Positions 2,025-39,792 of a DNA stretch of 39,812 nt are shown one piece after another; within the stretch, counting starts at the first letter, position 1; each line of letters begins with the position of its first letter. The translations under genes were made by a program, and so were the position numbers. Source of the stretch: Flavobacteriia bacterium (GTDB lineage Bacteria > Bacteroidota > Bacteroidia > Flavobacteriales_D > Crocinitomicaceae); contig JACOTM010000041.1 of assembly GCA_016178305.1 (NCBI GenBank), positions 1 to 39,812 of the forward strand, read 5' to 3'. The notes beneath the pieces are model-generated. The model searched no databases. It was not told the origin of the DNA and saw nothing but the letters and a program-made list of their open reading frames with translations.

Positions 2025-2026
2025 AG

Positions 2027-3496: not shown

Positions 3497-3507
3497 TTAA
3501 TAAAATT

Positions 3508-6500
3508 ATGAAAAAAAACATATTAATAGCTTTTTTTATTATTACTTCTAATTTTATAATTGCTCAAACATATTATGCACCTACAGCAGGGATTTTAGGT
3601 TCTTTTGCTGGCGGGTGTCCAATTGGAACAAATACAGGTACTTATGTTGATGATGGTGGAGTAGGTGGAAATTATTCAACAAATATTAATGGAGTTTACC
3701 AGACAATCTGCCCAACAAATACAGGAGAGTCAATTTCTATAACTTTTTCAAGTTTTAATATGGAAAATGGCTGGGATTATATTGTGATTGGTAATGGACC
3801 TGCTCAAAATAGCACGGCTTTTACTACTGCTCCTGCTGATGCAATGGGTTGGATTACAGGTACACCTAGTGTTCCCTTTACATATACGGCTACAAACTCT
3901 TCGGGATGTTTGACAATTCGATTAACTTCGGATTTTATAACAACCGCAGCCGGTTTTCAAGCAACAATTTCTACGGTAAATAATGGAACGGCTTTAGCGA
4001 CAGGAAATTCTGATTGTAATACTTCCAGATTTATATGTTCGAATACAGCTTTTAATGATGTTTCTTATGGACCAGGAATAGCGCCTGATGAAGCTTGTGT
4101 AAGTAGCTGTTTAACAGGTGAAGTTTATTCAAATTGGTACACTTTTACAGCTATGACAACAGGGACAATTGAATTGACAATTGCTCCTAATACAGGTACA
4201 GATGATTTTGATTTTGCAATTTTTGGACCTGGAACATCTTGTGGGGCTGCTGCCCCAGTGAAATGTTCTTTTTCTGGAGTTACAGGAAATACGGGTTTAA
4301 CAAGTACTTCATTTGATTCTTCTGAAGGTGCAGGAGGGGACGGATGGTTGTCTCCCTTGAATGTTATTGCTGGAGAAACGTATCAGTTAATGGTTAATAA
4401 TTGGTCTCCCGGTGGTGCAGGTTTTGATTTGAATTTTTCAGGTAGTGCAACAATTGGTACACCTGCTCCCGCAATCAACTCGGCATCAGTTTGTGGTACT
4501 CAAACTACAATATTAACGGCTACTCCAACTAAACCAGGTGGTGTTTATTCTTGGAGCACAGGGGAATCTACTCAGTCAATTAGTGTATCTCCAGCAGTTA
4601 CGACAACTTATACTTGTAGTTATACAATTGATGGGTGTACTAGTATTTCTTCTGGTTCAGGTACTGTGACTGTAACACCTGTTCCAACAGCTAATATTTC
4701 ATATATTGGATCCCCTTTTTGTACAACATTAGGCACACAAACTGTTGTGTTGACTGGAACAAATAGTTATACAGGAGGAGTTTTTTCTTCAACAGCTGGA
4801 TTAACGATTAATGCAGGTTCAGGACTAATAACTCCTTCATCAAGTACACAAGGGACTTATACTGTAAATTATGCTATTCCTGTAGTTGGTGCTTGTCCCT
4901 CTACAAATGTTACAACTTCCATTACGATTGATGGTACGCCTACAGCAATAGCAGGAGGAACTCAAAATATTTGTTCAACAGGAACGGCTACTGTTAGTGG
5001 AGCTTCTGCAACAAATGGTTCTATTCTTTGGACGCATAATGGTACGGGTACGCTGACAGGAGCAACAACTTTAACTCCTCAATATTCTCCTTCATTAGGT
5101 GATATAGGAAATACAGTTACTTTAACGATGACCGTTACGAGTAACAATTCTTGTGGAGGAACTGCAACTGCAATATATTCGGTACAAGTTGATCCTTTAC
5201 CAACGGCATCTGCTGGAGGAACTGCAACAATTTGTTCTAATGGAACAGTTGTCGTTTCAGGGGCTATTGCAACGAATGGAACAATTGCATGGACTGAAAA
5301 TGGTTCAGGATTTATATCTGCAAATGGAACAACAAATGCTCCAACATATTCTGCAGCTCTTGGTGATGCTGGGAATACTGTCACATTAACCATGACGGTT
5401 ACAAGTAATAATGCTTGTGCACCAGCAACAGCTTCAGCTATTTATTCCGTTATTGTTGATCCCCTTCCAACAGCCACGGCAGGAGGGACTCAAACAATTT
5501 GTCAAAATGGGATAGCTCTTATTAGTGGGGCTACATCAACAAATGGGACCATTTTATGGACACATAATGGTGCTGGTTCGATTTCAAATTCAAATACAAT
5601 TGCGCCAACTTATAATGCTGTAGCTGGTGATGCAGGAAATACAGTGACATTAACATTAACAGTTACGAGCACTAACAGTTGTGCACCTCAAACTGCAACA
5701 GCAAGTTATACAGTTAACGTAAATGCAAATCCAACATTTACTTATGTTGCTACAGATCCTACTACTTGTAATGGTACTGATGGCTCAATAAATATTCAAG
5801 GGTTAAATAATAATTCAAATTATTCTATTTCATTTACAACTCCTTTAGCTGGTACAACTCCTTTTGTCAGTGATGCTTCAGGGAATTATTTAATATCTAA
5901 TTTACCAGCATCAACATATACAATTACTAATATTACTTTAATTTCATCTGGATGCCAAAGCACAGGTGCAGTTATTAATTTAAGTAATCCAGGTGCTCCT
6001 TCATTGGTTGTTACGGATCCGATTGCAGTGTGTTCTCCGCTAACGGTTGATATCACGCTTCCTGCAACAACAGCTGGTAGTACTGGAGTTATAGGGTTGA
6101 GTTATTGGACTGATGGAGTAGCTACAATTCCATTAGGAACTCCAAATGCAATAACTACTACGGGAATTTATTATATTAAAGCAACCAATGGTATTTGTAC
6201 AGATATAAAGCCTGTAAATGTTACGGTCAATACAACACCAATACTCGTAATTACAAATCCTTCAGCTGTTTGTACACCACTTACAGTAGATATTACTTTA
6301 GCTGCAATTACCACAGGAAGTACAGGAGGAGGAACATTAAGTTATTGGACTGATGGAGCAGCTACAATTCCATTAGGAACTCCAACATCAATTGGCACTT
6401 CAGGTACATATTATATTAAAGCAGATAATATGAGTTGTGTAGATATTAAGCCAGTTATAGTAACAATTAATGCAACACCTGTTTTAGTCATTACAAATCC

Positions 6501-8439
6501 TTCAGCTGTATGCAGCCCTGCTACAGTAGATATTACTTTACCCGCAATTACCGCAGGAAGTACAGGAGGGGGAACATTAAGTTATTGGACTGATGCATCG
6601 GCTACGAGTGTTTTAGGAACACCAACATCAATTGGTATTTCAGGAACATATTATATTAAAGCAGATAATGCAAGTTGTATAGATATTAATCCCGTTGTTG
6701 TAACGATAAATTCATTGCCAACTTTAATAATCACCGATCCTGCGGCTGTTTGTTCACCATTAACAGTAGATGTTACTTTGCCGGCAATTACCGCAGGAAG
6801 TACAGGTGGAGGAACATTAAGTTATTGGACTGATGCTGGAGCTACGAGTGTTTTAGGGGTGCCGACATCAATTAGTTTGTCAGGAACATATTATATAAAG
6901 GCAGATAACTTTGGATGTGTAGATATTAAACCAGTTAATGTTCTGATTAATACATCACCTGTTTTAGTAATCACAGATCCTTTGGCTGTTTGTTCACCAT
7001 TAACAGTAGATATTACTTTACCTGCAATTACATCAGGGAGCACAGGTGGAGGAACTTTAAGTTATTGGAGCGATGCTTCTGCTACGATTGTACTAGCTGC
7101 GCCCTCAGTGATTTCAACTTCTGGTATTTATTATATTAAAACGACAACAGGTTCAGGTTGTACAGATGTCGAACCTGTAAATGTTACGATAAATATATCT
7201 CCAAACTTAACTGTCAATGACCCTGCATCTGTTTGTTCACCATTAACAGTAGATATTACTTTACCTGCAATTACCGCAGGAAGTACAGGAGGAGGAACAT
7301 TAAGTTATTGGAGTGATGCTTCTGCTACTATTGTTTTAGGAACACCAACAGCTATTAGTTCTTCAGGAATATATTATATTAAAGCAATAACAGGACAGGG
7401 TTGTTTCGATGTTCAACCAGTCAATGTGATTGTTAATTTAACACCAGATGTAGATGATATAACTGATATTCAATCATGTGATTCATTACTGTTGCCAGTG
7501 ATAACAGGAGTGAACTTGACAGGTAATGAAGCTTATTTTTTAGGGGCTAATGGTACAAGTGTTCAATATCAGGCAGGAGATTTAATTTTAAATACGGTTA
7601 ATTTAATTTATATATATGATGCAATTTCAAATTGTAGTAGTGAAGAATCTTTTTCGGTTACGATAAATTCAACAGATGACCCTACGTTTATTTTCAGTTC
7701 TTATTGTGAAGGAACAGCAAATGGGCCAACAGGTATAATCACTCCAGGTGGTAGTTTTAATTTTAATCCTTCAGTTGTTGATGGTGCTGTAATAGATCAG
7801 GTAACAGGTGTTATTTCAAACGGTGTAGGAGGAAGTTCATATTCAGTAGAATATATTACAAACGGAACTTGTCCAGATACTTTAGATTTACCGATTATTG
7901 TTTTTACAAAGCCTTCAGCACCATTGTTAAGTGCTTCAACAACTTATTGTTTGTCAGATTCAATATTTGATATGACAGCTACAAGTATAGCCGGAAATAC
8001 AATTAATTGGTATGAATCGAATAATTTAAATACGATTTTTGCTTCTGGAAATATACTAACACCAGTTGCGACAACAATGACATATAATGTAAATGAAATT
8101 TCTTCAAATTCATGTGTTAGTGATTATAGTTTAATTACAATTACAATTGAACATTGTGATGTTGTAATTCCAACTGCTTTTACACCTGATGATGATAAGA
8201 TAAATGACACTTGGGAGTTAAAATATTTAGATGTTAATTTCCCGAAAAATAGTGTGAAAATTTACAATAGATGGGGAAATATAGTATTTGAATCCAAAGA
8301 AGGTCAATATGAATTAGCTCCTTGGGATGGTAAAGTGAATGGTGAAATTCTACCAGTAGCATCATATTATTATTCAATAGAATATAATCAAGATGGTAAA
8401 GAGTCAGCAAGAGGAATTATAACAATTATTAAACAATAA
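3508..8439 (+). CDS. Giant T9SS-secreted adhesin with CUB-like, PKD/Ig repeats and gliding-motility C-terminal domain
   Basis: The product has 1643 residues. It carries a signal peptide (residues 1-20), a CUB-like domain at about 25-155 (SGCLTIRLTSDF, GFQATIST), and a second N-terminal beta-sandwich at about 165-310 (SNWYTFTAMTTGTIELTI, YQLMVNNWSPGGAGFDLNFSG). An Ig-like unit shared with the leftward adhesin follows (GVYSWSTGEST). Three PKD-like units lie at about 478-741 (TNGTILWTHNG, GDAGNTVTLTMTVTSNN) and six near-identical 80-81-residue units at about 832-1313 (AVCSPLTVDITLPAIT, GTLSYWTD, YYIKADN). The final ~90 residues match the gliding-motility-associated C-terminal domain (IPTAFTPDDDKINDTW, IYNRWGNIVFES, PWDGKVNGEILPVASYYY), a T9SS cargo signal. 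Known SprB-like proteins with this ending are moved across the outer membrane and anchored with a PorP/SprF partner, and such a gene follows 17 bp downstream. It is most likely an extracellular adhesin. Confidence 0.93.
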   Translation: MKKNILIAFFIITSNFIIAQTYYAPTAGILGSFAGGCPIGTNTGTYVDDGGVGGNYSTNINGVYQTICPTNTGESISITFSSFNMENGWDYIVIGNGPAQNSTAFTTAPADAMGWITGTPSVPFTYTATNSSGCLTIRLTSDFITTAAGFQATISTVNNGTALATGNSDCNTSRFICSNTAFNDVSYGPGIAPDEACVSSCLTGEVYSNWYTFTAMTTGTIELTIAPNTGTDDFDFAIFGPGTSCGAAAPVKCSFSGVTGNTGLTSTSFDSSEGAGGDGWLSPLNVIAGETYQLMVNNWSPGGAGFDLNFSGSATIGTPAPAINSASVCGTQTTILTATPTKPGGVYSWSTGESTQSISVSPAVTTTYTCSYTIDGCTSISSGSGTVTVTPVPTANISYIGSPFCTTLGTQTVVLTGTNSYTGGVFSSTAGLTINAGSGLITPSSSTQGTYTVNYAIPVVGACPSTNVTTSITIDGTPTAIAGGTQNICSTGTATVSGASATNGSILWTHNGTGTLTGATTLTPQYSPSLGDIGNTVTLTMTVTSNNSCGGTATAIYSVQVDPLPTASAGGTATICSNGTVVVSGAIATNGTIAWTENGSGFISANGTTNAPTYSAALGDAGNTVTLTMTVTSNNACAPATASAIYSVIVDPLPTATAGGTQTICQNGIALISGATSTNGTILWTHNGAGSISNSNTIAPTYNAVAGDAGNTVTLTLTVTSTNSCAPQTATASYTVNVNANPTFTYVATDPTTCNGTDGSINIQGLNNNSNYSISFTTPLAGTTPFVSDASGNYLISNLPASTYTITNITLISSGCQSTGAVINLSNPGAPSLVVTDPIAVCSPLTVDITLPATTAGSTGVIGLSYWTDGVATIPLGTPNAITTTGIYYIKATNGICTDIKPVNVTVNTTPILVITNPSAVCTPLTVDITLAAITTGSTGGGTLSYWTDGAATIPLGTPTSIGTSGTYYIKADNMSCVDIKPVIVTINATPVLVITNPSAVCSPATVDITLPAITAGSTGGGTLSYWTDASATSVLGTPTSIGISGTYYIKADNASCIDINPVVVTINSLPTLIITDPAAVCSPLTVDVTLPAITAGSTGGGTLSYWTDAGATSVLGVPTSISLSGTYYIKADNFGCVDIKPVNVLINTSPVLVITDPLAVCSPLTVDITLPAITSGSTGGGTLSYWSDASATIVLAAPSVISTSGIYYIKTTTGSGCTDVEPVNVTINISPNLTVNDPASVCSPLTVDITLPAITAGSTGGGTLSYWSDASATIVLGTPTAISSSGIYYIKAITGQGCFDVQPVNVIVNLTPDVDDITDIQSCDSLLLPVITGVNLTGNEAYFLGANGTSVQYQAGDLILNTVNLIYIYDAISNCSSEESFSVTINSTDDPTFIFSSYCEGTANGPTGIITPGGSFNFNPSVVDGAVIDQVTGVISNGVGGSSYSVEYITNGTCPDTLDLPIIVFTKPSAPLLSASTTYCLSDSIFDMTATSIAGNTINWYESNNLNTIFASGNILTPVATTMTYNVNEISSNSCVSDYSLITITIEHCDVVIPTAFTPDDDKINDTWELKYLDVNFPKNSVKIYNRWGNIVFESKEGQYELAPWDGKVNGEILPVASYYYSIEYNQDGKESARGIITIIKQ
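4939..5730 (+). repeat. Three tandem PKD/Ig-like units in the giant adhesin
   Basis: The units start at 4939, 5200 and 5467 with lengths of 261, 267 and 264 bp. Each begins PTA-x-AGGT-x-x-IC, has TNG(S/T)I-x-W in the middle and GD(A/I)GNTVTLT(M/L)TVTS near the end. They are clear at protein level but more diverged in DNA than the later 240-bp set, so they look older. Confidence 0.85.
6001..7446 (+). repeat. Six 240/243-bp tandem units with high DNA identity in the giant adhesin
   Basis: The units run 6001-6240, 6241-6480, 6481-6720, 6721-6960, 6961-7203 and 7204-7446. The period is exactly 80 codons for the first four and 81 for the last two, so the frame is kept. The core coding for VDITLPAIT-x-GSTGGGTLSYW is almost unchanged in DNA, including synonymous sites, in units 3 to 6. 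The unit edges (for example VLVITNP, TLIITDP, NLTVNDP) are more variable. This suggests recent duplication or gene conversion. Confidence 0.9.
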
Positions 8440-14831: not shown

Positions 14832-16133
14832 TTAATTATCCCAAGTAACTGGTTTTGTAATTGGAATATAACTTGCATTTGCTCCATTTAAGTTTAATTC
14901 GCTTTGAGGAACAGGAAATCTTCTTGGAATAGGGGTTCCAGTATTTGATACTAGCGTTGGGAAATTTGTTCTTCTCCAATCTGTAAAAGTTTCATGTTCA
15001 AAAATTAATGCAATATACTTTTGATTAATAATATGTTCTAAAGTAATGTTTGCAGCCCCTGGATCTATGGCGTTTTGAGCGAGATAAGTATTAATATTTG
15101 TTTGACTTATCCCATCTCGTTGCAATGCTAAAGTAATTCCTTCGATATAATCATTATGAGCACTTGCAGCACCGCTAATTTGGAATTTACACTCAGCCTT
15201 AATGAAAGCTTGCTCAATTAATGAAGCAATTACATGTGGTTTATCCCCAAGAATATAAGTGTTATCATCAACATTAAAAGGTTGGTCATAAAGTGCATTT
15301 CTTGGGTCATTATAATTTGTTAATAATTCTGACATGCGTTTTCCAATTGTAATATCTGGCCAATCTTGAATAAATTGATACATTGGATTTGAAATTGCTC
15401 CACCAGGATAAGGAAATTTAGTATCTGCTGACAACCCATTATTAATGGCATTGAGTGCGTCTTGGTATTTAGAAGCATCTTTTTTAGCTAATCTTAAATT
15501 TGCTCTTGCTTCTAAAAAATAAGTGAATTCAATCCATTTATTGACATCTCCATTATAAATTAAGTCGTCATCTGAGGGTGTTTTTGCTCCTCCATCTGCT
15601 TGGCCTAAATCAGCTCGAGCTTGTTCCAATAAGTCAAAAACAGTGGCATATAATTTTTCTTGAGAATCATAAGCAGGTTGGATGTTATTAAACCCATTTA
15701 AAGCTTCAGAATATGGTGCTGAGTCCCAAAAATCTGCTAAAAACAAAACGGTATAAGCCTCTAAAGATTTAGAGATTCCGTTATAATGGTGATAGCCATT
15801 TTTAGTTGCCGTTTCTTTCAATTTTTTAATTTCCATTAGAATTTTAGTATAAATGTTTGATTCGTACATGTTTTCCACATCCGAGCCATTAAATTTATAT
15901 TGTTCTAAAACAGTCCATTGGCGTTCAACTCCTTTGATTTGCTGATTTAAAATTCCAGAAAATCGAGCAGCATCGCCACCAAAAGTATAACTAATTGCAG
16001 CTTCAATACCTGGTAAGATAACTTTAGGTTCAACTGAATTTGGATTATTTGGGTTTTCATTGACTTTCCCAAAATATTTTTTACAAGCTGTAATTGAAAC
16101 AGCAAGTACACAAAATAGAAGTAATTTTTTCAT
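14832..16133 (-). CDS. SusD/RagB-family outer membrane nutrient-binding lipoprotein
   Basis: This 433-residue protein has a lipoprotein signal with lipobox SITAC (Cys17), followed by the typical SusD_2-type start KVNENPNNPNSVEPKVILPG. Central segments (ARANLRLAKKDASKYQDAL, EAYTVLFLADFWDSAPYSEA) match the TPR-containing SusD fold. The end has FEHETFTDWRRTNFPTL and IPRRFPVPQSELNLN, both typical. SusD proteins cap the SusC channel at the cell surface and capture ligand. The partner susC lies 24 bp upstream but is broken, so the pair may not be functional. The substrate cannot be told; no degrading enzyme genes are adjacent. Confidence 0.94.
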   Translation of the reverse strand: MKKLLLFCVLAVSITACKKYFGKVNENPNNPNSVEPKVILPGIEAAISYTFGGDAARFSGILNQQIKGVERQWTVLEQYKFNGSDVENMYESNIYTKILMEIKKLKETATKNGYHHYNGISKSLEAYTVLFLADFWDSAPYSEALNGFNNIQPAYDSQEKLYATVFDLLEQARADLGQADGGAKTPSDDDLIYNGDVNKWIEFTYFLEARANLRLAKKDASKYQDALNAINNGLSADTKFPYPGGAISNPMYQFIQDWPDITIGKRMSELLTNYNDPRNALYDQPFNVDDNTYILGDKPHVIASLIEQAFIKAECKFQISGAASAHNDYIEGITLALQRDGISQTNINTYLAQNAIDPGAANITLEHIINQKYIALIFEHETFTDWRRTNFPTLVSNTGTPIPRRFPVPQSELNLNGANASYIPITKPVTWDN

Positions 16134-16157
16134 AATATTTACTTTATTCGAGTTTAA

Positions 16158-17912
16158 TTAAATTTTTATATTCAAACCAAATGTAACTGAACGTGTACTT
16201 GGCATGTTAAAATAGTCAAGTCCTTTTGCATTACTAGAAGAACCCGTTAAGCTAGTTTCAGGATCTACACCTGTGTATGGAGTAAATAGTAAAAGATTGT
16301 ACCCTGTAGCAAAAACACGCACTTCTTGAATTACTGGTTTATTGAATTTCTTCATTTTAAAAGTATAGGCAACAGTAATATTTCTCAATCTATATGCCGA
16401 TGCATTTTGAACAAAAGGAGCCGCCGCATTACCGAATCCACCACCATTTCCTGTGTACCAATTTTGGTCTAAAGCTACTGGAACATCATTTGTGTTTTCA
16501 CTAATGATTAAATTTCCTTCTGAATCATAATGACCTTTTACTCCTTCAAATACGGTTGATGCTTGTCCTAAATCATCTCTGTTTTCAGTGTTTTTAGACA
16601 TTCCGAAATAAGTTAAAGCACCTTGTGTACCGTTCCACATTTGTCCACCTACTTTCATATCAATTAAAAAAGACACCTCTAAGTTTTTATAACTGAAATT
16701 ATTCGTAATTCCAAGTATGAATTTTGGATTTGGATTTCCAATCACTTTATAATTAGGATTAGCCATTGGATAACCGTAATTGCCTACATCACTTGTATCA
16801 TCATTGATAACTAATTTTCCATCTGCCGTTTTAGCATAATCTCCACCATAAATTTGTCCAAATTGTTGCCCCGGAATATGGTATATTGCCGATCCATCAA
16901 AACCACCTACGAATAACTGATCTAATCCATCAGCTAATTTATCTACGATTGTTTTATATTTTGTAAAAGTTGTTCCAACATTCCATTCAAATTTCTCTTT
17001 TCTAATAGGAGTAAAATTTAAAACAGCATCGATACCATTTGTGTGTAATTGTCCACTGTTCATTAATATTTGTCCATAACCAGTAGTTCCTGAAACAGAA
17101 ACAGGTAAGATAGCATCTGTTGTTTTTCTGTGATAATATGCAAAATCAACTACAATTCTCTTTTTGAAAAAACTAATATTTGTTCCTATTTCTATATCTA
17201 ATGTTTTTTCTGGAGTCAAATTTGGATTACCTTGTGTATTACTTAATCCAAAGCTGGTTACACCAAAATAAGGAAATGAAACACCACCTGAAGGAGACCA
17301 TCCATCTGTAATGTTTTGTGAACCAGAAAGCTGTTCGTACGTTGTACTCGTATAATAAGATGAAGAAGGACCTTTAGATACTTGTGCAACAGATGTTCTA
17401 ATTTTTCCGAAATCTAAAAATTTCATTTTAGGCATTAACTCAGAAAAAATAAAACTTCCAGATACTGAAGGATAGAAAAATCCAATATCTTTTAATTTGT
17501 AATTTGCATTATTCGGGTCAATAAATCTTGAATCGTAATCTTGTCTACCTGTGAATGTTACATACAATAGAGATTTATACCCTAAATCAACACTTCCAAA
17601 AAATGAAAATGATTTGTATTTATCGATATAGTTTGCGGAATTAATATTGGTTGCAGCTCCTAGGTTTCCAAAATTGTCAAAAGCAAAACTTTTACCAATA
17701 GTATATAATTGATCTGAACTATAGCTGAAAGTATTCATTCCGACATTGTAAGATAGGTCTAATTTTTTATTTTTTGTCACAGCTCCACTACCAGATAAAG
17801 TGTAATAACAATCTAATTGCTTCACTAAATTTACCTCATTTGTTACTTTTCCTTGAGGATTTGCTCTTGATCCTACTGCAAATACTTGTTTTCTTTTATC
17901 TGAATAAGTATC
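16158..17912 (-). pseudogene. SusC/RagA TonB-dependent receptor, C-terminal part (second frame)
   Basis: This frame is open from just after a TGA at 17913-17915 down to the TAA at 16158. It encodes the outer-membrane barrel: YSDKRKQVFAVGSRANPQGK at its start, FFYPSVSGSFIFSELMP, NPNLTPEKTLDIEIGTN, TGYGQILMNSGQLHTNGID and SAYRLRNITVAYTFK, ending FGLNIKI. The first residues continue the protein of the N-terminal frame but are shifted. The only candidate start of its own is a GTG at 17825 inside the barrel, so independent expression is unlikely. The whole gene (16158-19312) would encode about 1050 residues. It lies 24 bp upstream of susD. Confidence 0.85.
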
Positions 17913-19312
17913 TCACCTCTGTAATTTCTTTGTGAACCATCTGCTAATTCGTATGCATCAACAGATTCCCATCCTTTTGCATTTCCATTTGCATTATCAA
18001 AAGTGATAGGTGTTCTCAATAATCCTAACATAATTCCTGAAAGATTAGATCCTTGTTGGATTCGTTGACCGCCAGAATTAATGTAATTTGCTGTCCCGCT
18101 TATATTGAATTTCTTATCAAACATGGAAAGATTTGTTCCTAAGCTAACATTTGTTTTTTCAAATTTATTAGTAGGAATAACGCCAGATTCTTTAACGTTA
18201 GAAACAGATAATCTAAAATTTGAAACTTCTGTACCTCCAGTTATAGAGAAATTATTTTTAGTAGAATATCCGGTTTTAAAAAAGGCATCTAAATTATTAT
18301 AAGGTGTAACAGCTGTTTTTGCTGAAGGATCTGTATTTAATACAATATTTCCATTTTTATCATAAGGATTATTTGTTGCTCCATCATACGAAAGCATATC
18401 GATGGATGGTCCCCAACTTGTACTCACGGCAGAATCTGGTGGATAATATGTTCCATCAATACCTTGTGCATATTTGTTTTGAAGTTCAGGTAATTTATTT
18501 ACTTGGGACAATGTAATTGAAGAACCAGCTGTAACAGTCATTTTACCATTACTATTTTTCTTTCCCTTTTTTGTTGTAATAATAATTACTCCGTTTGCTC
18601 CATCAATTCCATAAATAGCCGTTGCTGCTCCGCCTTTTAAAACAGAAATAGATTCAATATCATCTGGATTAATATCTATCCCTCTATTCGAAAATCCAAC
18701 AGATTCAGTATTATCAGAGGCTTCTCCACCTAATGAAGTTTCATTATTATTTATTTTAACCCCATCAATTACAAATAATGCTTGATTATTTCCTGTTAAA
18801 GAAGTAAATCCTCTTAAAACAATACTTGAACTTCCTCCAGCAACACCTGAAGATTGTGTAATGTTTGCGCCTGCTACTACCCCGTTTAATGAATTAACGA
18901 CATTTGTTTGGTTCGTGTTTCGAATCGTATTGGCATCAACTGTTGAAACAGCATAACCTAAGGCTTTTTCACTCCTTTTCACTCCCATAGCAGTTACAAC
19001 AACTGTTTCAATTTGAGTTACAGGTTTCATCAAAACAACCATGTTATTGGATAAGCCAACTGGTTTTTCAATAGATTCAAATTCCGGCTGACTAAAGACT
19101 AAAGTATCTTTGTCATCACGAACGGTAATGATAAATTGACCTTTATCATCACTCATGGTCCCAATTATAGTACCTTTAATTTTTACGTTTACACCAAAAA
19201 TAGGTTCATTTTTGGTTTCCGATAGAACTGTTCCACTGATCTCACGTTGCCCCAAAGAGACAAAACAGAGCAGTAAAAACATTCCTGTTAGAAATGTTTT
19301 ACATTTTTTCAT
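17873..19312 (-). pseudogene. SusC/RagA TonB-dependent receptor, N-terminal part (first frame)
   Basis: It starts at the ATG at 19312 (a GTG at 19318 is possible), with signal peptide MKKCKTFLTGMFLLLCFVSLGQ. A carboxypeptidase-D regulatory-like domain follows at about 23-105 (ISGTVLSETKNEPIFGVNV). The TonB plug has VVVTAMGVKRSEKALGYAVS, SGVAGGSSSIVLRGFTS and ALFVIDGVKINN, and the start of the barrel is also present. The frame reads DGSQRNYRG near 17915, then runs into unrelated residues and stops at 17873. Related receptors usually have a conserved stretch after NYRG (about YDNPYW and the next 40 or so residues) before the YSDKRKQ segment. Here it appears to be missing, so the lesion looks like an out-of-frame deletion rather than a single-base slip (inference from memory of the family). 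Confidence 0.85.
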
Positions 19313-19435
19313 TTGCACTAGTTTATTAATAGTTTAACGGGACTAAAATAATTATTATTTTTTACAAATAGACATATATTATATTAAAATATAAACACAT
19401 ACATCATTATTTGTTTGTAATTTAATTGACTTAAA

Positions 19436-19487: not shown

Positions 19488-20642
19488 TTATGCTAATTTC
19501 ATCTCTTTTACTTTTCTTTTTAAAAGAGGATTTGGTCTGTAACGATCTTCGCCATATTCATTGAATAAGTTTTCTAATTTAGATAAAACCCATTCCAGCC
19601 CTAATTCATCAGCCCAATTCAATAACCCTTTTGGATAATTAACACCATTTGTCATTGCTAAATCAATATCTTCTTTTGATGCAACGTTTAAGAATAAGGC
19701 ATCGTAGGCTTCATTAATTAACATCACAATAATGCGGTCGAAAATTTGTTGACCTAATTCAAAATTTTCTATTGCTTTTGGGAATTCAACTCCGTCTGTA
19801 TAATTATAATATCCTCTTCCTGATTTTCTTCCTAAGAAACCTGCTTCAGCATGCCTTTTTTGGGTAAATGAAGGTTTAAATCTAGGGTCATAATAAAAAG
19901 CAGCAAACACAGATTCAGTTACTGCGTAATTTACATCATTTCCAATGTAATCCATTAATGTAAATGGTCCCATTCTGAATCCCCCAATTTTAGTCATTGC
20001 CCAATCGATTGTAGCAAAATCTGCGATTCCTTCTTCATAAATTCTCAATGCTTCTCCATAAAATGGTCTAGCAACGCGGTTGACAATAAATCCAGGAGTG
20101 TCTTTACATATACACGCTGTCTTTTTCCAGGAAGTGATCAATTTTTTTGCTGTTTCTAAGGTTTCATTACTTGTTTGAACAGCTGGAATAATCTCTACCA
20201 AAGGCATTAATGGAGCTGGATTGAAAAAATGAATTCCAATAATACGATCTGATTTTTCTAAAACTGACCCTATTGACGCAATAGAGAGGGATGATGTATT
20301 ACTAGCTAACATGCAATCTTTCGAAACAATACCTTCTAGTTGTTCAAAAACCTTGTGTTTTACATCTATTTTTTCAATAATAGCCTCAATGACTAAGCCA
20401 CATGTTTGAAAAGATAGTATATCAGAACTGTATTTAATTCTATTGGTAATCTGTAAATATTCTTCTGAGCTTAATTTGTTTTTTTCTACAAGCCGTGATA
20501 ATATACTTTCTAAATTAGCTTTTGCTTTTTCAATAGCCGACTCATTGACATCAACTAAATATACGATATGCCCAGCTTGTGCTGCAACTTGAGCAATTCC
20601 TGAACCCATTGTTCCTGCCCCTAAAACTCCGATTGCGATCAT
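19488..20642 (-). CDS. 3-hydroxyacyl-CoA dehydrogenase (NAD-dependent, PaaH/FadB-like)
   Basis: This 384-residue cytoplasmic enzyme oxidises 3-hydroxyacyl-CoA to 3-oxoacyl-CoA. The N-terminal Rossmann motif GVLGAGTMGSGIAQ (about 5-18) is followed by SNTSSLSIASIG and the catalytic-site segment GIHFFNPAPLMPLVEI. The first C-terminal domain shows GFIVNRVARPFYGEALRI, MGPFTLMDYIGNDVN and GRKSGRGYYNY. A second one (about 295-384) shows NEAYDALFLNVASKEDIDLAM and NYPKGLLNWADELG. The PaaH type acts in phenylacetate degradation, which fits the enoyl-CoA hydratase remnant nearby, but ordinary beta-oxidation is equally possible. It starts 3 bp after the WG-repeat gene and is the last gene of the operon. 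Confidence 0.93.
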   Translation of the reverse strand: MIAIGVLGAGTMGSGIAQVAAQAGHIVYLVDVNESAIEKAKANLESILSRLVEKNKLSSEEYLQITNRIKYSSDILSFQTCGLVIEAIIEKIDVKHKVFEQLEGIVSKDCMLASNTSSLSIASIGSVLEKSDRIIGIHFFNPAPLMPLVEIIPAVQTSNETLETAKKLITSWKKTACICKDTPGFIVNRVARPFYGEALRIYEEGIADFATIDWAMTKIGGFRMGPFTLMDYIGNDVNYAVTESVFAAFYYDPRFKPSFTQKRHAEAGFLGRKSGRGYYNYTDGVEFPKAIENFELGQQIFDRIIVMLINEAYDALFLNVASKEDIDLAMTNGVNYPKGLLNWADELGLEWVLSKLENLFNEYGEDRYRPNPLLKRKVKEMKLA

Positions 20643-20645
20643 TTC

Positions 20646-21737
20646 TTATTTTAGTTTAAAATATTCAACTCCATTTTCTCCAACAAATACTTTTTCACCA
20701 TTGTACATCACTTCATAAAGAAGAAAATTCCAACGATTGTTTACTTGTAAATACTTATATTTTTGTATAATATCGTAATTTGGTTCTATGGTTGGATAGG
20801 AGGTGGTTACTAATTTTATTCCAAATTTATTGTCTTTCAATAGAACAAAGGAGTTATTAAAATAATCAATCTCAATATAATCATAAAGACTAGGCAAGAT
20901 TATTTCATATTTTTCCACTTTGTTGTAATTTCCAAAATTTTTATATTGCAACAATCCAAATTTCCCATTTTGAGTGAAAACAATATATATCTTTCCATTA
21001 ATTTTTATTCCTCTATAAGCTTTAATTCCATTAGAAAATACTAAATCTCCAACTAACGGAAAGGTAATATTCATATTTTTAGTTGGTTCAAAAAATCCAA
21101 ATTCTTCTTCTGAATCAGCTAATAAATATTCTTCTGTAAATGTGTCTTGTGTTTTAATAAATTCACCTTTATTATTTGGAACATACCATTCTTGATCAGT
21201 GTTACTTTTTCTAAAATAGTATTTATCATGTTCAATGTCATAATACCAGTTATTCATTAAAGATTGAGTGATTTTTTTCTTTTTTAAATCATAAATCATA
21301 ATCGAAAGACTTTGATTTTCTATGAATAGGAAGTTTGAATTCAATGGATTAGGAAAGAGATTTCGAATCATTGTGTCAACTATTAATTCTCGATTTTTCC
21401 AATCGTAAATTCCTTTTAAAGAGTTTTTATTTTCGATTACCCATAAATCTTTTTGTGCCAATTCTTCATTGTGGCAATGTGATAATTTCGTATTAGGAAG
21501 CGGAATATATCCTTTGTTTAAAATATAATTGTATTTATTATTTCCAAATGTCACTTCACTGGTCCAATATTTCCCCAATTTATTAAAAAAACCACAAGAA
21601 TTAAATTCGGGAGTAATTACTATTTTACCTAGTGTATCGCAATATCCCCATTTGCCATGATCATTATAGGGTATGAGGTGTGGGCATAGAAGCAATTTGA
21701 TTTGCAAATTTAAAAACTTCTTCTTCAAAGTTTTCAT
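20646..21737 (-). CDS. WG-repeat protein lacking its native start, fused out of frame to an enoyl-CoA hydratase remnant
   Basis: The open frame has 363 codons. From about residue 21 on it is a WG-repeat protein: LIPYNDHGKWGYCDTLGKI, then weaker units such as NGKFGLLQYKNFG, LPSLYDYIEIDYF and KDNKFGIKLVTTSYPTIEP. The first ~20 residues (MKTLKKKFLNLQIKLLLCPH) are the enoyl-CoA hydratase sequence read in another frame, so the apparent ATG at 21737 is accidental and the true 5' end of the WG gene is absent. The stop lies 3 bp before the dehydrogenase ATG. The open frame is intact for over 340 codons, so the break is recent or the chimera is still translated, perhaps coupled to the hydratase. WG repeats have no firm function. 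Confidence 0.55.
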   Translation of the reverse strand: MKTLKKKFLNLQIKLLLCPHLIPYNDHGKWGYCDTLGKIVITPEFNSCGFFNKLGKYWTSEVTFGNNKYNYILNKGYIPLPNTKLSHCHNEELAQKDLWVIENKNSLKGIYDWKNRELIVDTMIRNLFPNPLNSNFLFIENQSLSIMIYDLKKKKITQSLMNNWYYDIEHDKYYFRKSNTDQEWYVPNNKGEFIKTQDTFTEEYLLADSEEEFGFFEPTKNMNITFPLVGDLVFSNGIKAYRGIKINGKIYIVFTQNGKFGLLQYKNFGNYNKVEKYEIILPSLYDYIEIDYFNNSFVLLKDNKFGIKLVTTSYPTIEPNYDIIQKYKYLQVNNRWNFLLYEVMYNGEKVFVGENGVEYFKLK

Positions 21738-22281
21738 CAGCCACGGCTTTGTATATCATATTCATTTGCTCTGCTTCTTCGGCAGTTACTTTATCGCCAG
21801 TCATCATTAAAGCTAATGCTTTTTGAGAACCAATAATTCGAGGTAAAAAGAAAGTTCCGCCAGAATCAGGGATTAAGCCTATTTTAGAAAATGCTTGAAT
21901 GAAGCTTGCACTTTTTTTAGCGATAGTAATGTCACAAGCTAAAGCAATATTAGCACCAGCACCAGCAGCAACGCCATTTACAGCAGCAATAATTGGTTTT
22001 TCAATATTTCTTATGCGTTCAATAATCGGATTGTAGTGATCTTTAACAATTGATTTTAATTCAGGTCCATTTGGGTCAGTTGCTTCAGCTAAATCTTGCC
22101 CAGCACAAAATGCTTTTCCTTCTCCAGTGATAATTATAGCTCTAACAGCTTCTTCTTTTTCGCAAGTATCAAGTGCATTTTGCAATTGAATAGCCATTGT
22201 TTTATTGAAAGAATTGAAAACCTCAGGGCGATTTAATTTAATTTCACAAACGCCATTTTGGGTTGAAATAACAAGTTCCAT
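21664..22281 (-). pseudogene. Enoyl-CoA hydratase/isomerase (PaaG-like), 3'-truncated
   Basis: This is a crotonase-fold protein with MELVISTQNGVCEIKLNRPEVFN-type start, GEGKAFCAGQDLAEA (oxyanion-hole region), AAVNGVAAGAGANIALACD, and IGLIPDSGGTFFLPR with the catalytic acidic region. It stops at 205 residues (ASMPTP followed by three unrelated residues), where family members run to about 255-265. The missing part is the C-terminal helical segment needed for oligomerisation and active-site closure, so the product is probably not functional. The normal reading is replaced after about 21670 by a WG-repeat gene. The gene still sits in an operon with 3-hydroxyacyl-CoA dehydrogenase, its metabolic partner. 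Confidence 0.85.
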
Positions 22282-22323: not shown

Positions 22324-24153
22324 TTAACTTTCGACTTGTTTAAAAAAGATTTTAATTAATGTTCCTTCTTCTGAAGAATAAGTACTTAATTCCCCGTCCA
22401 ATTGTTCAGCAAGTGATTCGACGATTTCACTTCCTAAACCTATTTTTTTTGCTTTTGCATTAAATCCCGAGCCATCATCTTTAACTTCTAATATGAAATT
22501 TGAGGGGTCACTTAATTGGTACAGTCGAACGATTAAATTTCCTTCAGTTTTATTATTGAAAGCATGTTTAAATGCATTTGTAACAAGTTCACAAATAATT
22601 AGGCCTACAGGAACAGCTGTGTCGAGATTTAAATTGATGTTTGGGGAATCAATGGTTAAGTTTATTTTCTTTTCGTTTGAAATATAAGTTCTTAAAAGTT
22701 GTTGCGTTAAATCGATAATGTAACTTTCCATATCAATGGATGCAAAAGAGTCTGCCTGGTACAGCTTTTGATGAATCAATGCAATAGCTTGAATTCTTTC
22801 TTTGCCTTCGGCTAAAACATTTAAAGCATTTGGGTCATCAACATTTCGAGATTGAAGGTTTAGTAAACTGGAAATGATTTGCAAATTGTTTTTTACACGG
22901 TGATGAATTTCTTTTAATAAAATGACTTTTTCCTTTAATGCGGCATCGATTAATTCATTTTTTTCGATAATACTTTTTTGTTGTTCAACAAGAACTTTAT
23001 TTAATTTATTTTTAGTTCTATAAGCATACAATATCATCGCGATAATAAATAAAAGAAGTATAGAGCCGATTATTAAAAAAGTAAGTATTAAGCGATTTGA
23101 ATTTTTAACACTTTTAATGACTTCATCTTTATTTCGAATTATTGAGGCATTTTGTTCATTTTCAAAAGCTTTTTCCAATTCATCAGCTAAATTTTTATCA
23201 GCTATTGCACGAATTGAATCTTCAATTTCATGTGTTAATGTGGAATAATGGTAAGCAGAATCAATGTTGTGAATTTTGTTGTAATAAATTTCAAGCCCCA
23301 TATACGTTTGGTAAACATCCCGAATGTCAGCTTGTTTTTTATGTTTTAGAAACTCATTGTAATAGTATTTTGAGCTATCCATTTCATTCATAAACAGATA
23401 TGTTTCTCCTAAATTAACATAGAGGTAATATTTATTAATTTCAAGTTTGTTTTTGATACAATATTGGAGGCATTGTTGAAACTTAGAAATTGCTTTTTGA
23501 TCTTGACCTTCCCAAAAATAGCCGATACCTTCACGAATATCTACAATCAGTAATGAATTATAATCATTAATTTCTTTGAATATTTTTTTTGCTTTGACAA
23601 TATATTCCCGTCCTTTTTTAAAGTTTTTATGATCAAAATAATATTTAACAAAAGTGCTTAAGCAAGTGGCTTCAAGATATTTAAAATGTATTTTTTGAGC
23701 GGCTTTTAATGTCTTTTTTATGTAAGATATATGTTTTTTTTGATTTTTATTAACGGCATAATTAATGGCTTTGTAATAATCTAAAAGCAATTTTTGTTCG
23801 GGTTTTGTTTTCGAATTAACACTTCTTAAAGCGTTAAATAATTCCATTTTCATGTGCGTGAAATCACCAATAAATCGGTATAAATCTATTTTTAGAATTA
23901 CGTAATCCAGCCAGATATTTTTATTTTCATAAATTTGAGATTCTAGAATTTTTTCATCTATTTTTTTTCGAGCCTCATCAACATTGGTAATGATTAAATT
24001 TCTCAATTCTAAAATCTCTTGATCGTGATTTTTTTCAGGTGCAAGATGGTGTATATTAACAGCGGATTTAAGTCCGAGAGGAAGCAGTAAACAGAAATTG
24101 AATACTAAAAATAAAGTCAGTGAAAAATGTTTATTTTTAAAGTTAGATTTCAT
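22324..24153 (-). CDS. TPR-containing membrane sensor histidine kinase, HisKA_2 type
   Basis: The product has 609 residues: a signal peptide/N-terminal hydrophobic segment ([18 protein letters not shown]), then a periplasmic helical TPR-like region at about 45-330, one membrane helix at about 353-376 ([21 protein letters not shown]) and a short coiled linker. The HisKA_2 dimerisation domain has [20 protein letters not shown], with phospho-acceptor His near 415. The HATPase at about 505-605 has [19 protein letters not shown] and [22 protein letters not shown]. The start overlaps the WYL regulator gene by 11 bp. No response regulator gene is adjacent, so the kinase is an orphan in this window. 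The signal sensed is unknown. Confidence 0.93.
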
Positions 24154-25156
24154 ATAATTTAACCATTCCTTTTATTCGAGAAGTTATTTCATCTCTTAAT
24201 TCTTTCGGTTCAATAATTTCTATACCATTTCCATAACTCATGATTGAACGTATAAACTCCTCTGAATTAATTATTTTTAATTCGAAGGTAATTCTGTTTT
24301 TTCCTTCTTTAATTACAGATTGAGAAATGTGGAATGGTTGTGATTGAATGTATTTTGCAGCGACTTTATCTGCTTTAAATTGAATAGAAATAGGTTCGTC
24401 TTTTCCGCTTGTGATACCGATAGCATGCTTGAAAAAATGATCGGGATCAAAGTCACTTGGTTTTAACCCATATTCTTCCGAGATAATTAAATTTTCCATT
24501 CGTTCTAAGGCATACGTAATAACATTTTGCTTATCAACATCGAATGAAATTAGATACCATCTATTGCGGTATTCTTTTAATAATAAAGGAATTACTTTTC
24601 GGCTTTTAGGTTTGTCAGAAATAAAACTCGTATAGATAAAAGTAACAATTTGACTGTCTTTAATCGCTGTCAATAGAGGTGCTAAATAATCACTTCCTCC
24701 ATTTGATATTGCGGTTTCGAATTGAACAAAATTAGAAATGTCGGTATCTGTTGGATTAGAAGCAATATTTATACGGTCAACAATTTTATCAATAGCATTT
24801 CCAAATTGCTTGAATAAATCTACATCTCGAAATTGCATTAATGTTTTAACTGCGAATTTGATTGAATTTAAATCATCTTCAGATAAAGGAATGTCATTGA
24901 TTGAAAAATTTTCATCTTTGTAATAATATCCACCATTTTTTTTGCTGTAGGCAATCGGAGCATCATGTTCCATTTTCATAGCAAACATATCTTTTTCAAT
25001 TGTTGAATCACATATATTCGCTCCTTCTGCTAAGCCATAAAGCGCCTCCTCACATGCTTCTCTTAAATCCTTTTTAGTCGGATAAGGACGAAAAGAATTT
25101 CTGAGACAACGGTCAATAATTCGAAATCGTATTTGGGCATTCTTAATATGAGGCAT
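24143..25156 (-). CDS. WYL-domain transcriptional regulator
   Basis: This 337-residue protein has an N-terminal winged-helix region (about 1-80: [32 protein letters not shown], given here in pieces as [11 protein letters not shown] and [26 protein letters not shown]). The central WYL domain (about 160-235) has [35 protein letters not shown] and ALERMENL. The C-terminal WCX-like extension has [19 protein letters not shown] and [22 protein letters not shown] proteins sense ligands and regulate nearby genes. It lies 9 bp after the 475-residue gene and overlaps the kinase gene by 11 bp, so it may control its own operon. Confidence 0.92.
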
Positions 25157-35285: not shown

Positions 35286-35440
35286 AAACTAATTCGAGAT
35301 ATTTGAGCTAAGTCAATGGTGTCCGGGTTAATTCGAATGTCTGAGCTAATTCGAGATGTCTGAGCTAAGTTAATGGTATCTGAGTTAATTCGGAGATGTC
35401 TGAGCTAAGTCGATGGTGTCTGAGCTAAGTCGAAGACACC
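35286..35440. repeat. Array of about eight ~20-bp tandem units of two alternating types
   Basis: Units begin GAG or GGG: 35305-35324, 35325-35342, 35343-35361, 35362-35381, 35382-35401, 35402-35421 and 35422-35440, with a partial unit at 35286-35304. Type A is GAGCTAAGTCGATGGTGTCT and type B is GAGCTAATTCGAGATGTCT. The order is B A B B A B A A'. Lengths of 18-20 bp break any reading frame. The array lies between two convergent genes and its last two units fold into a terminator-like hairpin. Confidence 0.85.
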
Positions 35441-35450
35441 ATTTTATTTT
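35413..35450. terminator. Hairpin made from the last tandem units, likely bidirectional terminator
   Basis: ATGGTGTCT (35413-35421) pairs perfectly with AGACACCAT (35434-35442), leaving a 12-nt loop that is part of the repeat unit. TTTATTTT follows on the plus strand. It lies between the convergent stops at 35236 and 35449 and partly overlaps the stop region of the amidohydrolase gene. Confidence 0.65.
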
Positions 35451-36456
35451 AGATAAATAATTTTCTATCCAAATTCAACCATTCTAATGTTGAAGTTGAA
35501 AAAATATTTGTTTGATCTTCAATGCTTAAATTGCTTTCTTCGATGAATTTACCGAATTCTAAATCTCCTAAAGGAAATGGATAATCTGTTCCGAAACAAA
35601 CACGTTTGCTTCCTTGCATTTTTAGTATGTATTCTAAGGCATCTATGTCGTGCGTAATACAATCAACCCAAAATTTCCCAACATATTCTCTTGGATTTAC
35701 TTTATTGTCGATTGCAACTAAATCTGGTCTGCAATTAAAGCCATGTTCAATTCTACCTAATGTTGGTAAGAATGAACCTCCAGCATGAGAAAAACAAACT
35801 CTTAAATTTGGTAAACGCTCTAATACACCCCCGAAAACCATCGAACAAGCGGCACGAGAAGTTTCAGCTGGCATCCCAACCAACCAAGGCAACCAGTATT
35901 TTTCCATACTGTTGAAACCCATCATTTGCCAAGGATGGATCATGACAGCCATATCTAATCGTTCACATGCTTCGAAAATTGGAAAGAATTTTTCTTCACT
36001 TAAATTTTCATCGTTGATGTTTGAACCAATTTGAATTCCAACATGACCAATAGCTTTTGCACGTTCTAATTCTTGAATAGCCAATTGTGGATCTTGCATT
36101 GGAATAGTTGCTAATCCAATATAATTCTTAGGATATTTTGCAATTAAATCTGCAATGTGATCATTTAAAAATTGAGAAGTTTGTAAACAATCTTGAGGCT
36201 TTGCATTGTAAGAAAACATTACTGGAATCGTACAAACAACTTGTACCTTCGTCTGAAAATCTTCATATTCAGTAATACGAATATCTTCATCCCAACAATT
36301 TTCTTTGATACGACGGAAAAATTTCCCGCCTTGCATCATGTCAGCAGTTTTATCTTCGTTATGATTTAAAAAAATAAAATCCCCATAGCCAAATTTTTTA
36401 GTCCAATCCGGTAAGTTTTTTGGAATGATATGGGAATGCATATCAATTTTTAACAT
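35449..36456 (-). CDS. Amidohydrolase-family protein, ACMSD-like (2-amino-3-carboxymuconate-6-semialdehyde decarboxylase)
   Basis: This 335-residue protein starts MLKIDMHSHIIP, with the metal-binding HxH at residues 7 and 9. Other family segments are AVMIHPWQMMG near 170 (third His), MPAETSRAACSMVFGGVLER, LPNLRVCFSHAGGSFLPTLG near 220 (fourth His) and KRVCFGTDYPFPLGDLEFG near 290 with the catalytic Asp. The length and the AGGSFLPT segment fit ACMSD, an enzyme of the kynurenine branch of tryptophan breakdown (2-aminomuconate route). No other kynurenine-pathway gene is in the window, so a related decarboxylase activity is possible. A -7 element lies 17 bp upstream of the ATG. Confidence 0.88.
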   Translation of the reverse strand: MLKIDMHSHIIPKNLPDWTKKFGYGDFIFLNHNEDKTADMMQGGKFFRRIKENCWDEDIRITEYEDFQTKVQVVCTIPVMFSYNAKPQDCLQTSQFLNDHIADLIAKYPKNYIGLATIPMQDPQLAIQELERAKAIGHVGIQIGSNINDENLSEEKFFPIFEACERLDMAVMIHPWQMMGFNSMEKYWLPWLVGMPAETSRAACSMVFGGVLERLPNLRVCFSHAGGSFLPTLGRIEHGFNCRPDLVAIDNKVNPREYVGKFWVDCITHDIDALEYILKMQGSKRVCFGTDYPFPLGDLEFGKFIEESNLSIEDQTNIFSTSTLEWLNLDRKLFI

Positions 36457-36472
36457 TTCGTTTAGTTTTATA

Positions 36473-36502
36473 CAAATGTAGTTTTTTTAATGATATATCC
36501 AT
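36473..36502 (-). promoter_or_regulatory. Promoter of the ACMSD-like gene
   Basis: On the minus strand TACATTTG (36480-36473) matches TAnnTTTG, and 19 bp upstream is ATG (36502-36500), one base off the usual TTG. The gene starts 17 bp downstream at 36456. Confidence 0.55.
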
Positions 36503-36665
36503 GTGATTATAAGTAGAAGTCATGTTCCAATTTATCGAATTTCATCTGATTTGTATAAAAATATTGGATGATATAGTTCGTTTGAAATGATATTTTTAAA
36601 ATATTAAAATAATATAAATTTAAAAAGGTTGTATTGTTTTTAATATGTTGATTTTTAATTATTTG

Positions 36666-36731
36666 ACATTTTAAAATGTGTTTATAATTAGCTATAAGTA
36701 TAATTTCCAATATACTTATAGCTAATTATAA
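36666..36731. repeat. 21-bp perfect inverted repeat plus adjacent 14-bp palindrome in the ACMSD/hisS divergent region
   Basis: The arm at 36682-36702 is the exact reverse complement of 36711-36731, with an 8-nt loop (ATTTCCAA). A separate palindrome ACATTTTAAAATGT lies at 36666-36679. Neither strand has a T-run after the stem, so it is not a normal terminator, and it sits upstream of both divergent genes. The surrounding 355-bp gap (36457-36811) holds the two promoters and AT-rich spacer; a 67-codon frame at 36507-36710 is not credible. The inverted repeat could be an operator, an extruded cruciform site or a remnant of a small mobile repeat. Confidence 0.85.
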
Positions 36732-36762
36732 CTAATGAAAACTCATTTCAATTATCCATATA

Positions 36763-36792
36763 TTGCGCTTTGAATTTATAAATTTATCTTTG
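36763..36792 (+). promoter_or_regulatory. Promoter of hisS-hutH
   Basis: TTG (36763-36765), 19 bp, then TATCTTTG (36785-36792) is an exact match to the Bacteroidota promoter TTG-N19-TAnnTTTG. The hisS ATG lies 19 bp downstream, so the leader is very short. Confidence 0.78.
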
Positions 36793-36811
36793 CAACAAAT
36801 TATTTGAATAA

Positions 36812-38182
36812 ATGGCACAAAAACCTGCAATTCCAAAAGGAACGAGAGACTTTTTACCAGTTGAAGTAGCAAGAAGAAATTATATTTTTGATAATATAAA
36901 GAAATCATTTAAAAAATATGGTTTTGCACCGATTGAGACACCTTCTTTTGAACTTTCATCAACATTGATGGGGAAATATGGAGAAGAAGGAGATCGTTTG
37001 ATTTTTAGAATCTTGAATTCTGGAGAAAAAATGAAAAAAGCAGATATTGAAGCATTACAAGCTGACAATCTTCCTCGTTTTGCAAACTCTTTAGCTGAAA
37101 AAGCATTACGCTATGATTTAACTGTTCCTTTCGCTCGTTTTGTGGTACAACATCAAAATGATTTATCTTTTCCATTTAAACGCTACCAAATTCAACCAGT
37201 ATGGAGAGCAGATCGACCGCAACATGGTCGTTACCAAGAATTTTTTCAATGCGATGCTGATGTGGTTGGAAGTGATTCATTGGTTTATGAAGTTGATTTT
37301 GTGATGTTGTTTGATGAAGTATTAACTTCATTGGGTATTCCTGATTTCACAGTAAAAATTAATAATCGTAAAATCTTATCTGGAATTGCTGAAGTTAGCG
37401 GTGAATCAGATAAAATTATTGACATCACAGTAGCAATTGATAAATTAGATAAAATTGGTGAAGATGGTGTTATTAAAGAATTACTAGAAAAAGGAGTATC
37501 TGAAAGTGCCATTTCAAAAATACAACCTTTGTTTACCATTACAGGCTCAACGGAAGAACGTTTACAACAAATGAAAACCTTTTTAACTAAAAGTGAAATT
37601 GGTTTAAAAGGAATCGAAGAATTAGAATATGTTTTAGCACAAGTGAATGAATTGGGTGTTCAACGTGCAACAATTGAATTTGATGTGACACTTGCTCGTG
37701 GATTGAATTATTACACCGGAGCTATTTTCGAAGTAAAAGCGAATGGTGTAAAAATGGGGAGTATCTGTGGAGGTGGAAGATACGATGATTTGACAGGGCT
37801 TTTCGGAATGAAAGGAATGTCAGGAGTTGGGATTTCTTTCGGTGCAGATCGAATATACGACGTGTTGACGGAATTAAAATTATTTCCAAAAGAAACAGAT
37901 TTAGGATTGACTTTGTTGTTTGTTAATTTCGGAGAAAATGAACAAGCGCATTGTATGAAATTAGTTCATCAATGCCGTAAAGCTGGAATCGATTCTGAAA
38001 TTTATCCTTCAAATGCAAAAATGCAAAAACAAATGAAATACGCAAATGACCGAGGTGTTCAATATGTTGCCTTAATTGGTGAAGAAGAAATGAATAAAGG
38101 AATTGTGAATATAAAAAACATGGAATCAGGAGAGCAGATTGCTTTAGAGACAGAAAAACTAATCTCTTTTTTCCAAAAATAA
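36812..38182 (+). CDS. hisS: Histidyl-tRNA synthetase
   Basis: This 456-residue class II aminoacyl-tRNA synthetase charges tRNA-His in the cytoplasm. Motifs are PKGTRDFLPVEVARR at the N-terminus, TPSFELSSTLMGKYGEEGDR (motif 1 region), LRYDLTVPFARFVV, FKRYQIQPVWRADRPQHGRY (motif 2), EFFQCDADVVG, the histidine-binding ARGLNYYTGAIFEV, GGGRYDDLTGLFG and GVGISFGADRIYDVL (motif 3). The C-terminal anticodon-binding domain covers about 365-456 (CRKAGIDSEIYPSNAKMQKQ). It follows an exact consensus promoter and is joined to hutH with a 16-bp gap. Confidence 0.97.
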   Translation: MAQKPAIPKGTRDFLPVEVARRNYIFDNIKKSFKKYGFAPIETPSFELSSTLMGKYGEEGDRLIFRILNSGEKMKKADIEALQADNLPRFANSLAEKALRYDLTVPFARFVVQHQNDLSFPFKRYQIQPVWRADRPQHGRYQEFFQCDADVVGSDSLVYEVDFVMLFDEVLTSLGIPDFTVKINNRKILSGIAEVSGESDKIIDITVAIDKLDKIGEDGVIKELLEKGVSESAISKIQPLFTITGSTEERLQQMKTFLTKSEIGLKGIEELEYVLAQVNELGVQRATIEFDVTLARGLNYYTGAIFEVKANGVKMGSICGGGRYDDLTGLFGMKGMSGVGISFGADRIYDVLTELKLFPKETDLGLTLLFVNFGENEQAHCMKLVHQCRKAGIDSEIYPSNAKMQKQMKYANDRGVQYVALIGEEEMNKGIVNIKNMESGEQIALETEKLISFFQK

Positions 38183-38198
38183 TTAAACAAAAGAGACT

Positions 38199-39683: not shown

Positions 39684-39792
39684 TTAGTTTAAACCATAAA
39701 AGTGTCGAATATCAAAAGACTGAATTTCATTCAAATTCATAATAAGCCTGTTTATGGGCTATTCCTGTAATTTGATGCTTTTTGACATAAAC

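Follow-up and report, generated by a model that had tools for sequence, protein, structure and literature searches.

A short deletion has probably truncated both a PaaG-like crotonase gene and the adjoining WG-repeat gene in a Flavobacteriia bacterium

Results

The crotonase gene is cut and is joined out of frame to a WG-repeat frame

The window, i.e. the whole stretch of 39,812 nucleotides analysed here (contig JACOTM010000041.1 of assembly GCA_016178305.1), carries on its minus strand an operon ordered as a gene that we take to encode a WYL-type regulator, a histidine kinase, a crotonase, a WG-repeat frame and a dehydrogenase (Table 1). Residues 1-201 of the crotonase are homologous to those of its relatives and are followed by PHTL, four residues read out of frame, and then by a stop codon, the ORF ending as ...IASMPTPHTL. 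The fragment shows the core similarity of the crotonase fold family (Pfam ECH_1, PF00378; E 3.7e-60, 203.8 bits for a cut-off of 27), but the match covers profile positions 2-195 of 251 and thus falls short of a full-length domain. Everything after residue 201 of 257 is missing. The crotonase gene is therefore cut in this assembly, as the original prediction had proposed: about 56 residues are lost compared to relatives, where about 55 had been announced, and the junction read from the sequence lies close to the position, near 21670, where the break had been placed.

Table 1. Features of the crotonase/WG locus (positions in the window).
Feature	Positions	Strand	Description or basis
WYL-type regulator (presumed)	24143-25156	minus	first gene of the operon
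Histidine kinase	22324-24153	minus	operon member
PaaG-like crotonase (enoyl-CoA hydratase/isomerase), 3'-truncated	21664-22281	minus	205 codons; Pfam, TIGR02280, relatives
WG-repeat ORF from its first ATG	20646-21737	minus	363 codons, +1 frame relative to crotonase
Crotonase/WG overlap	21664-21737	minus	crotonase codons read in +1 frame; about 20 residues, MKTLKKKFLNLQIKLLLCPH
Putative deletion junction	21677-21681		crotonase codon 201 meets WG codons LIPYND
WG-repeat gene body, without own start and leader	20646-21677	minus	homologue alignment
3-hydroxyacyl-CoA dehydrogenase, intact	19488-20642	minus	384 residues; next gene of the operon

The crotonase stop codon falls within the WG ORF. Within this frame, one WG_beta_rep repeat is recognised (PF14903; E 2e-06, 28.1 bits for a gathering score of 25.6), and the WG conserved domain is retained through its C-terminal end, ...VGENGVEYF. 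Its structural model is mostly beta, with low to moderate confidence (pLDDT 58.4, from a four-row alignment), and no solved structure matched the WG alignment at E 0.1. The 3-bp gap claimed between the WG frame and the next gene was recovered, the WG stop codon ending at 20646 and the dehydrogenase ATG standing at 20642.

Crotonase is full-length in relatives

We compared the best 80 of the 125 crotonase loci found in our genome collection, which may omit records very near the window's genome (G000). The match to the window crotonase reaches residue 201 in 79 of the 80 loci, and residue 200 in L069, whose contig ends there. The crotonase frame closes at 255-263 residues in 79 loci (257 residues in 75, 258 in two, 255 in one and 263 in one), the 80th being cut by a contig end. 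At the genome level, a crotonase was found at E 1e-60 or better in 54 of the 59 related genomes searched, G000 included; the open frame is of at least 258 codons for every match listed outside G000 and of 206 codons in G000, and the best relative among the searched genomes is 89.6% identical.

A dehydrogenase was found downstream of the crotonase in 73 of the 80 loci. The four nearest loci (L040-L043, 88.6-89.6% identical, L042 and L043 coming from the same genome) have a 257-residue crotonase, 8 bp, and then the dehydrogenase, which is the arrangement of intact hydratase and dehydrogenase that had been anticipated for close relatives. A WG gene lies between crotonase and dehydrogenase in a single locus, L045. 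Besides L045, the two genes are more than 300 bp apart in 10 of the 73 loci, none of which gave a WG match at E 1e-8. In five of these wide-gap relatives (L054, L096, L097, L098 and L111), the slot is occupied by a protein of 115-117 residues that is presumably four-helix-bundle-like, in L056 and L107 by a histidine kinase, and the gap of L057, L082 and L110 showed no more than short or partial frames. The crotonase-dehydrogenase slot accepts different genes.

An undamaged gene order is found in L045

In L045 (Flavobacteriales UBA7666), a crotonase of 257 residues is followed, in the same slot as in the window, by a WG gene whose product has a signal-peptide-like leader, and then by the dehydrogenase. 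The WG protein of L045 can start MNKFTYTMLLCCFVSNANAQNSYDPKYLIPYNDRGKCGW, the mechanical ORF beginning further upstream. The slot is equally compact there, the stop codon of the WG gene marking the beginning of the dehydrogenase ORF. The window WG sequence aligns with that of L045 from LIPYND to the end, with an overall identity of about 34%. Since the alignment starts at the first residues after the junction and runs to the end, the WG frame represents a genuine gene body, not an ORF open by chance. In L045, LIPYND lies just past the leader and a short linker, and the window frame, which resumes precisely at LIPYND, thus lacks a start of its own, as had been stated.

Two further WG homologues, in L129 and L130 (genus g17), have a conserved domain starting at the same place as in the window and L045, and neither crotonase nor dehydrogenase was matched within the 10 kb examined near them. 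The leaders of L045 (...SNANA-QNSYDPKY-LIPYND) and L130 (...SFGFG-QKNPAF-LVPFNN) would both read as hydrophobic stretches ending before Q. A Q directly after the signal peptide is what the Bacteroidetes Q-rule (PMC5837995) leads one to expect, and it fits both leaders. These two homologues therefore have the longer N-terminus that had been predicted. Such a leader followed by Q is absent from the window WG sequence, which, upstream of the conserved domain, runs into crotonase sequence. As judged by alignment, the window thus retains essentially the whole WG conserved domain, and its leader is gone.

The deletion would have removed about 300 bp

The original prediction held that a rearrangement had replaced the 3' end of the hydratase gene. 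This is probably not the case: L045 has a leader-bearing WG gene behind an intact hydratase in the same slot, so that replacement is not the simplest reading, and one internal deletion between the two neighbours explains both broken ends. We consider, with a probability of about 0.7, that such a deletion broke both genes, rather than that a crotonase end was replaced or a working chimera formed. The two truncations, the slot shared with L045 and the matching break points are read directly, and no displaced crotonase end was found in the assembly; we infer a single event, its exact size and an ancestor with the gene order of L045.

In that ancestor, the gene for a PaaG-like crotonase of some 257 residues would have been followed by one for a WG-repeat protein that carried a signal peptide and was secreted, and this in turn by the 3-hydroxyacyl-CoA dehydrogenase gene. 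A single illegitimate deletion spanning roughly 300 bp would then have taken away the last 56 crotonase codons with their stop codon, the intergenic spacer and, from the WG gene, the start, the leader and the first residues of the mature protein, leaving the remaining parts joined out of frame. The missing stretch amounts to 303 bp on the scale of L045, although the ancestral spacer of this lineage may differ. A microhomology of about 1-3 bp is possible at the junction (21677-21681). The deletion ends share no word longer than 6 bp, and a repeat-driven misjoin is thus not indicated; this check was done on the sequence of L045 and not on that of the true ancestor. The deletion is also limited by the fact that the undamaged order comes from one genome only, whose WG protein is about 34% identical.

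If a WG fragment had instead been acquired, the 3' part of a WG gene would have recombined into an operon that had never held one, displacing the crotonase end. The nearest relatives do lack a WG gene in the slot, and close WG relatives are rare and patchy. A two-row WG profile (E 1e-5) matched 7 of the 240 family genomes, G000 included, three of the seven being short partial matches; the long ones are in G000, G093 (the genome of L045), G118 and G112. These four are also the only ones of 399 genomes matched at the order level (E 1e-8), and are those whose sequences built the WG query. No WG match was found in the 11 other genomes of the same genus, though nine of them carry the crotonase. The WG gene has thus been lost repeatedly from the slot, or gained separately or more than once, which counts against the deletion. 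The fact that L045 has both genes intact, crotonase and WG, in exactly the same slot nevertheless speaks against replacement, as does the dehydrogenase, whose residues 1-48 are closer to L041 (identity 0.81) than to L045 (0.65), and whose next 48 residues are likewise closer to L041 (0.71 versus 0.40). We also considered that an L045-like donor had supplied the WG gene together with the sequence downstream of it, and rejected this, as no trace of an imported flank is seen along the dehydrogenase identity. The search for a displaced or orphan crotonase C-terminus elsewhere in G000 found none, the sole match to the crotonase end being weak (E 0.006) and lying inside a full-length paralogue on contig C68. 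All in all, we regard replacement as quite improbable.

The WG start looks accidental

The first ATG of the WG ORF sits 74 bases inside the crotonase frame and is the only one before the conserved domain, counting ATG starts and leaving out TTG codons. It had been proposed to lie there by chance, and it does look accidental from the sequence comparisons. In 13 of 79 relatives, too, an ATG opens a +1 frame that reaches this point without a stop, and the intact crotonases of these relatives gave no WG match. The 22 bases before the ATG have the highest GC of 20 window starts compared (0.45, versus 0.05-0.27 for the others) and the second lowest A content (0.32). The leader encoded by the overlap has a peak hydropathy of 1.63, the lowest of six, versus 1.96-3.13 for five comparison N-termini.

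These results bear on whether a chimera could still be alive, with the WG frame translated from the accidental ATG or by way of a +1 shift of the ribosome within the 74-base overlap. The frame is indeed open over 363 codons, and the accidental leader is cationic and then weakly hydrophobic. However, recent damage accounts equally well for the open frame, the ATG-started frame also exists in relatives without a WG match, and both the GC-rich upstream bases and the leader comparison point the other way. The functional, still translated coupled chimera previously envisaged thus receives little support, and we hold it to be extremely improbable. We also judge it very improbable that the deletion gave the WG gene a new start by overprinting, the 20 crotonase-derived residues serving as a makeshift export signal or anchor and an overlapping gene pair being born in one step.

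The remaining crotonase codons show no decay

Over the 201 kept crotonase codons, dN/dS compared to L041 is 0.086, and that of the dehydrogenase is 0.095. Lineage-specific changes, polarised with three outgroups, number 6-8 in the window and 5-8 in sister loci, and none of the 90 near-invariant crotonase sites is changed. A long-dead crotonase would show more changes. Because the kept codons show no decay, either the joint is young, or the living genome does not contain it, or selection still acts on the fragment. If the deletion occurred, it would be recent on the scale of the genus. The undecayed crotonase is also, against the deletion, compatible with an error of assembly or with a protein on which selection continues to act.

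Other breaks leave some weight to an assembly artefact

About 300 bp could have been lost in assembling, the living cell having an undamaged crotonase and an undamaged WG gene. In addition to the undecayed codons, this would agree with the draft state of the genome, in 124 contigs, and with other breaks. A SusC/RagA-type receptor gene (16158-19318, minus strand), 3.8 kb away, lacks 133 bp at 17913/17914, out of frame; the loss has the same size when compared to either of two relatives, G003 and G010, whose frames are open for 1102 codons. On contig C47 (L218, 4239-6451), a TonB-receptor-like gene also looks split into two pieces in different frames, one with a carboxypeptidase-regulatory-like domain and the other with the barrel, a Plug domain being matched in neither piece. 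Such breaks could mark a gene-losing lineage or spots where assembly failed.

On the other hand, the deleted stretch, as it appears in L045, has no long repeat on its flanks, and no third break of this kind was seen by eye in the window, an inspection that covered the matched ranges and not 1-7400, where repeats abound and matches are poor. Nor is there a clear excess of broken-frame candidates over the relative G004. A codon-usage scan gave 3 sites in 19 stretches of G000 (282,547 bases), four of which were not random (the window itself and L218-L220, which carry paa genes or a paralogue), and 2 sites in 15 stretches of G004 (300,000 bases). An earlier version of the scan counted 8 frame switches in G000 and 12 in G004, or one each when switches with an ATG are set aside. 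Genome-wide fragmentation, of which these counts give no clear excess in G000 over G004, was thus not retained. Neither scan flags the crotonase/WG joint, both being therefore insensitive to its kind. Because other breaks exist and the joint goes unflagged, we keep an appreciable weight for an assembly artefact, while considering it unlikely.

The gene order around the crotonase operon is rearranged. The gene at 35449-36456, which we take to be amidohydrolase-like, and the SusC/SusD pair (14832-19318) lie side by side in G003 and G010, with some 16 kb between them in the window; the amidohydrolase-like gene of G008 comes after the dehydrogenase. The stretch 35413-39702, with this gene followed by what are presumably hisS and a histidine ammonia-lyase gene, is 90-94% identical to G010, G003 and partly G008, an identity higher than in the window's other long matched stretches (68-82%).

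The crotonase is related to PaaG

TIGR02280 is the best NCBIfam model for both the window fragment (244.1 bits) and the intact crotonase of L041 (320.9 bits), and both score below its equivalog cut-off of 345.15 bits. No match above this cut-off was found in G000 or in any of 14 control genomes. As even the intact L041 protein scores below it, assignment of the exact PaaG function is tentative. When the PaaG model is run across G000, the window crotonase comes first (242.7 bits) and the next protein reaches 147.7 bits; full-length crotonase paralogues remain in the genome. A model of the intact crotonase made without an alignment (pLDDT 40) was set aside.

Genes of the paaA/paaC type (PF05138) are found in two separate clusters, in L218 (6770-9431, contig C47) and in L219 (5941-8040, contig C2), together with genes that we presume to be paaB and paaD. 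The paaC gene on C2 appeared broken, with two TAA inside the match; an intact ORF of 249 codons is present there, and this candidate was rejected.

Discussion

A single short deletion is the probable origin of both truncations. The C-terminal part missing here is presumably needed, in the crotonase fold, for trimer formation. The truncated crotonase would probably misfold or fail to trimerise properly, the WG protein would be made poorly if at all and would not be exported, and the dehydrogenase would be untouched. If the deletion is real, the only protein of this genome strongly matching the PaaG model is broken and the two paaA/paaC-type clusters remain; a defect in phenylacetate use would be predicted from these sequences. 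More generally, two adjacent genes can be damaged by one short deletion that leaves the other genes of the operon in order, and before such a joint is interpreted as a gene fusion it needs to be compared with a relative in which the order is undamaged.

Among known systems, the crotonase is best compared to PaaG, the 1,2-epoxyphenylacetyl-CoA isomerase of E. coli (PDB 4FZW chain C), which is the best solved relative of the L041 protein, over its full length (E 1e-77); the alignment runs on through a C-terminal part that has no counterpart in the window copy. PaaF and PaaG are described in PMC4498308 as crotonase-fold proteins whose homotrimeric discs are stacked into one complex. The WG frame resembles WG_beta_rep repeat proteins (PF14903) by one repeat above the curated score and a mostly beta model, and differs from them in lacking its own start or leader and in having a single recognised repeat.

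The joint itself probably belongs with deletion-born pseudogenes and gene-end fusions, a general kind in bacterial genomes. It would share with them a short deletion between neighbours, an out-of-frame joint with little or no microhomology and an otherwise healthy operon. It would differ in that a single event has cost each of the two partners one of its ends, and in that the downstream gene gains a chance start inside the upstream gene. The proposed event is nonetheless of a common kind, being ordinary gene damage and no new kind of gene.
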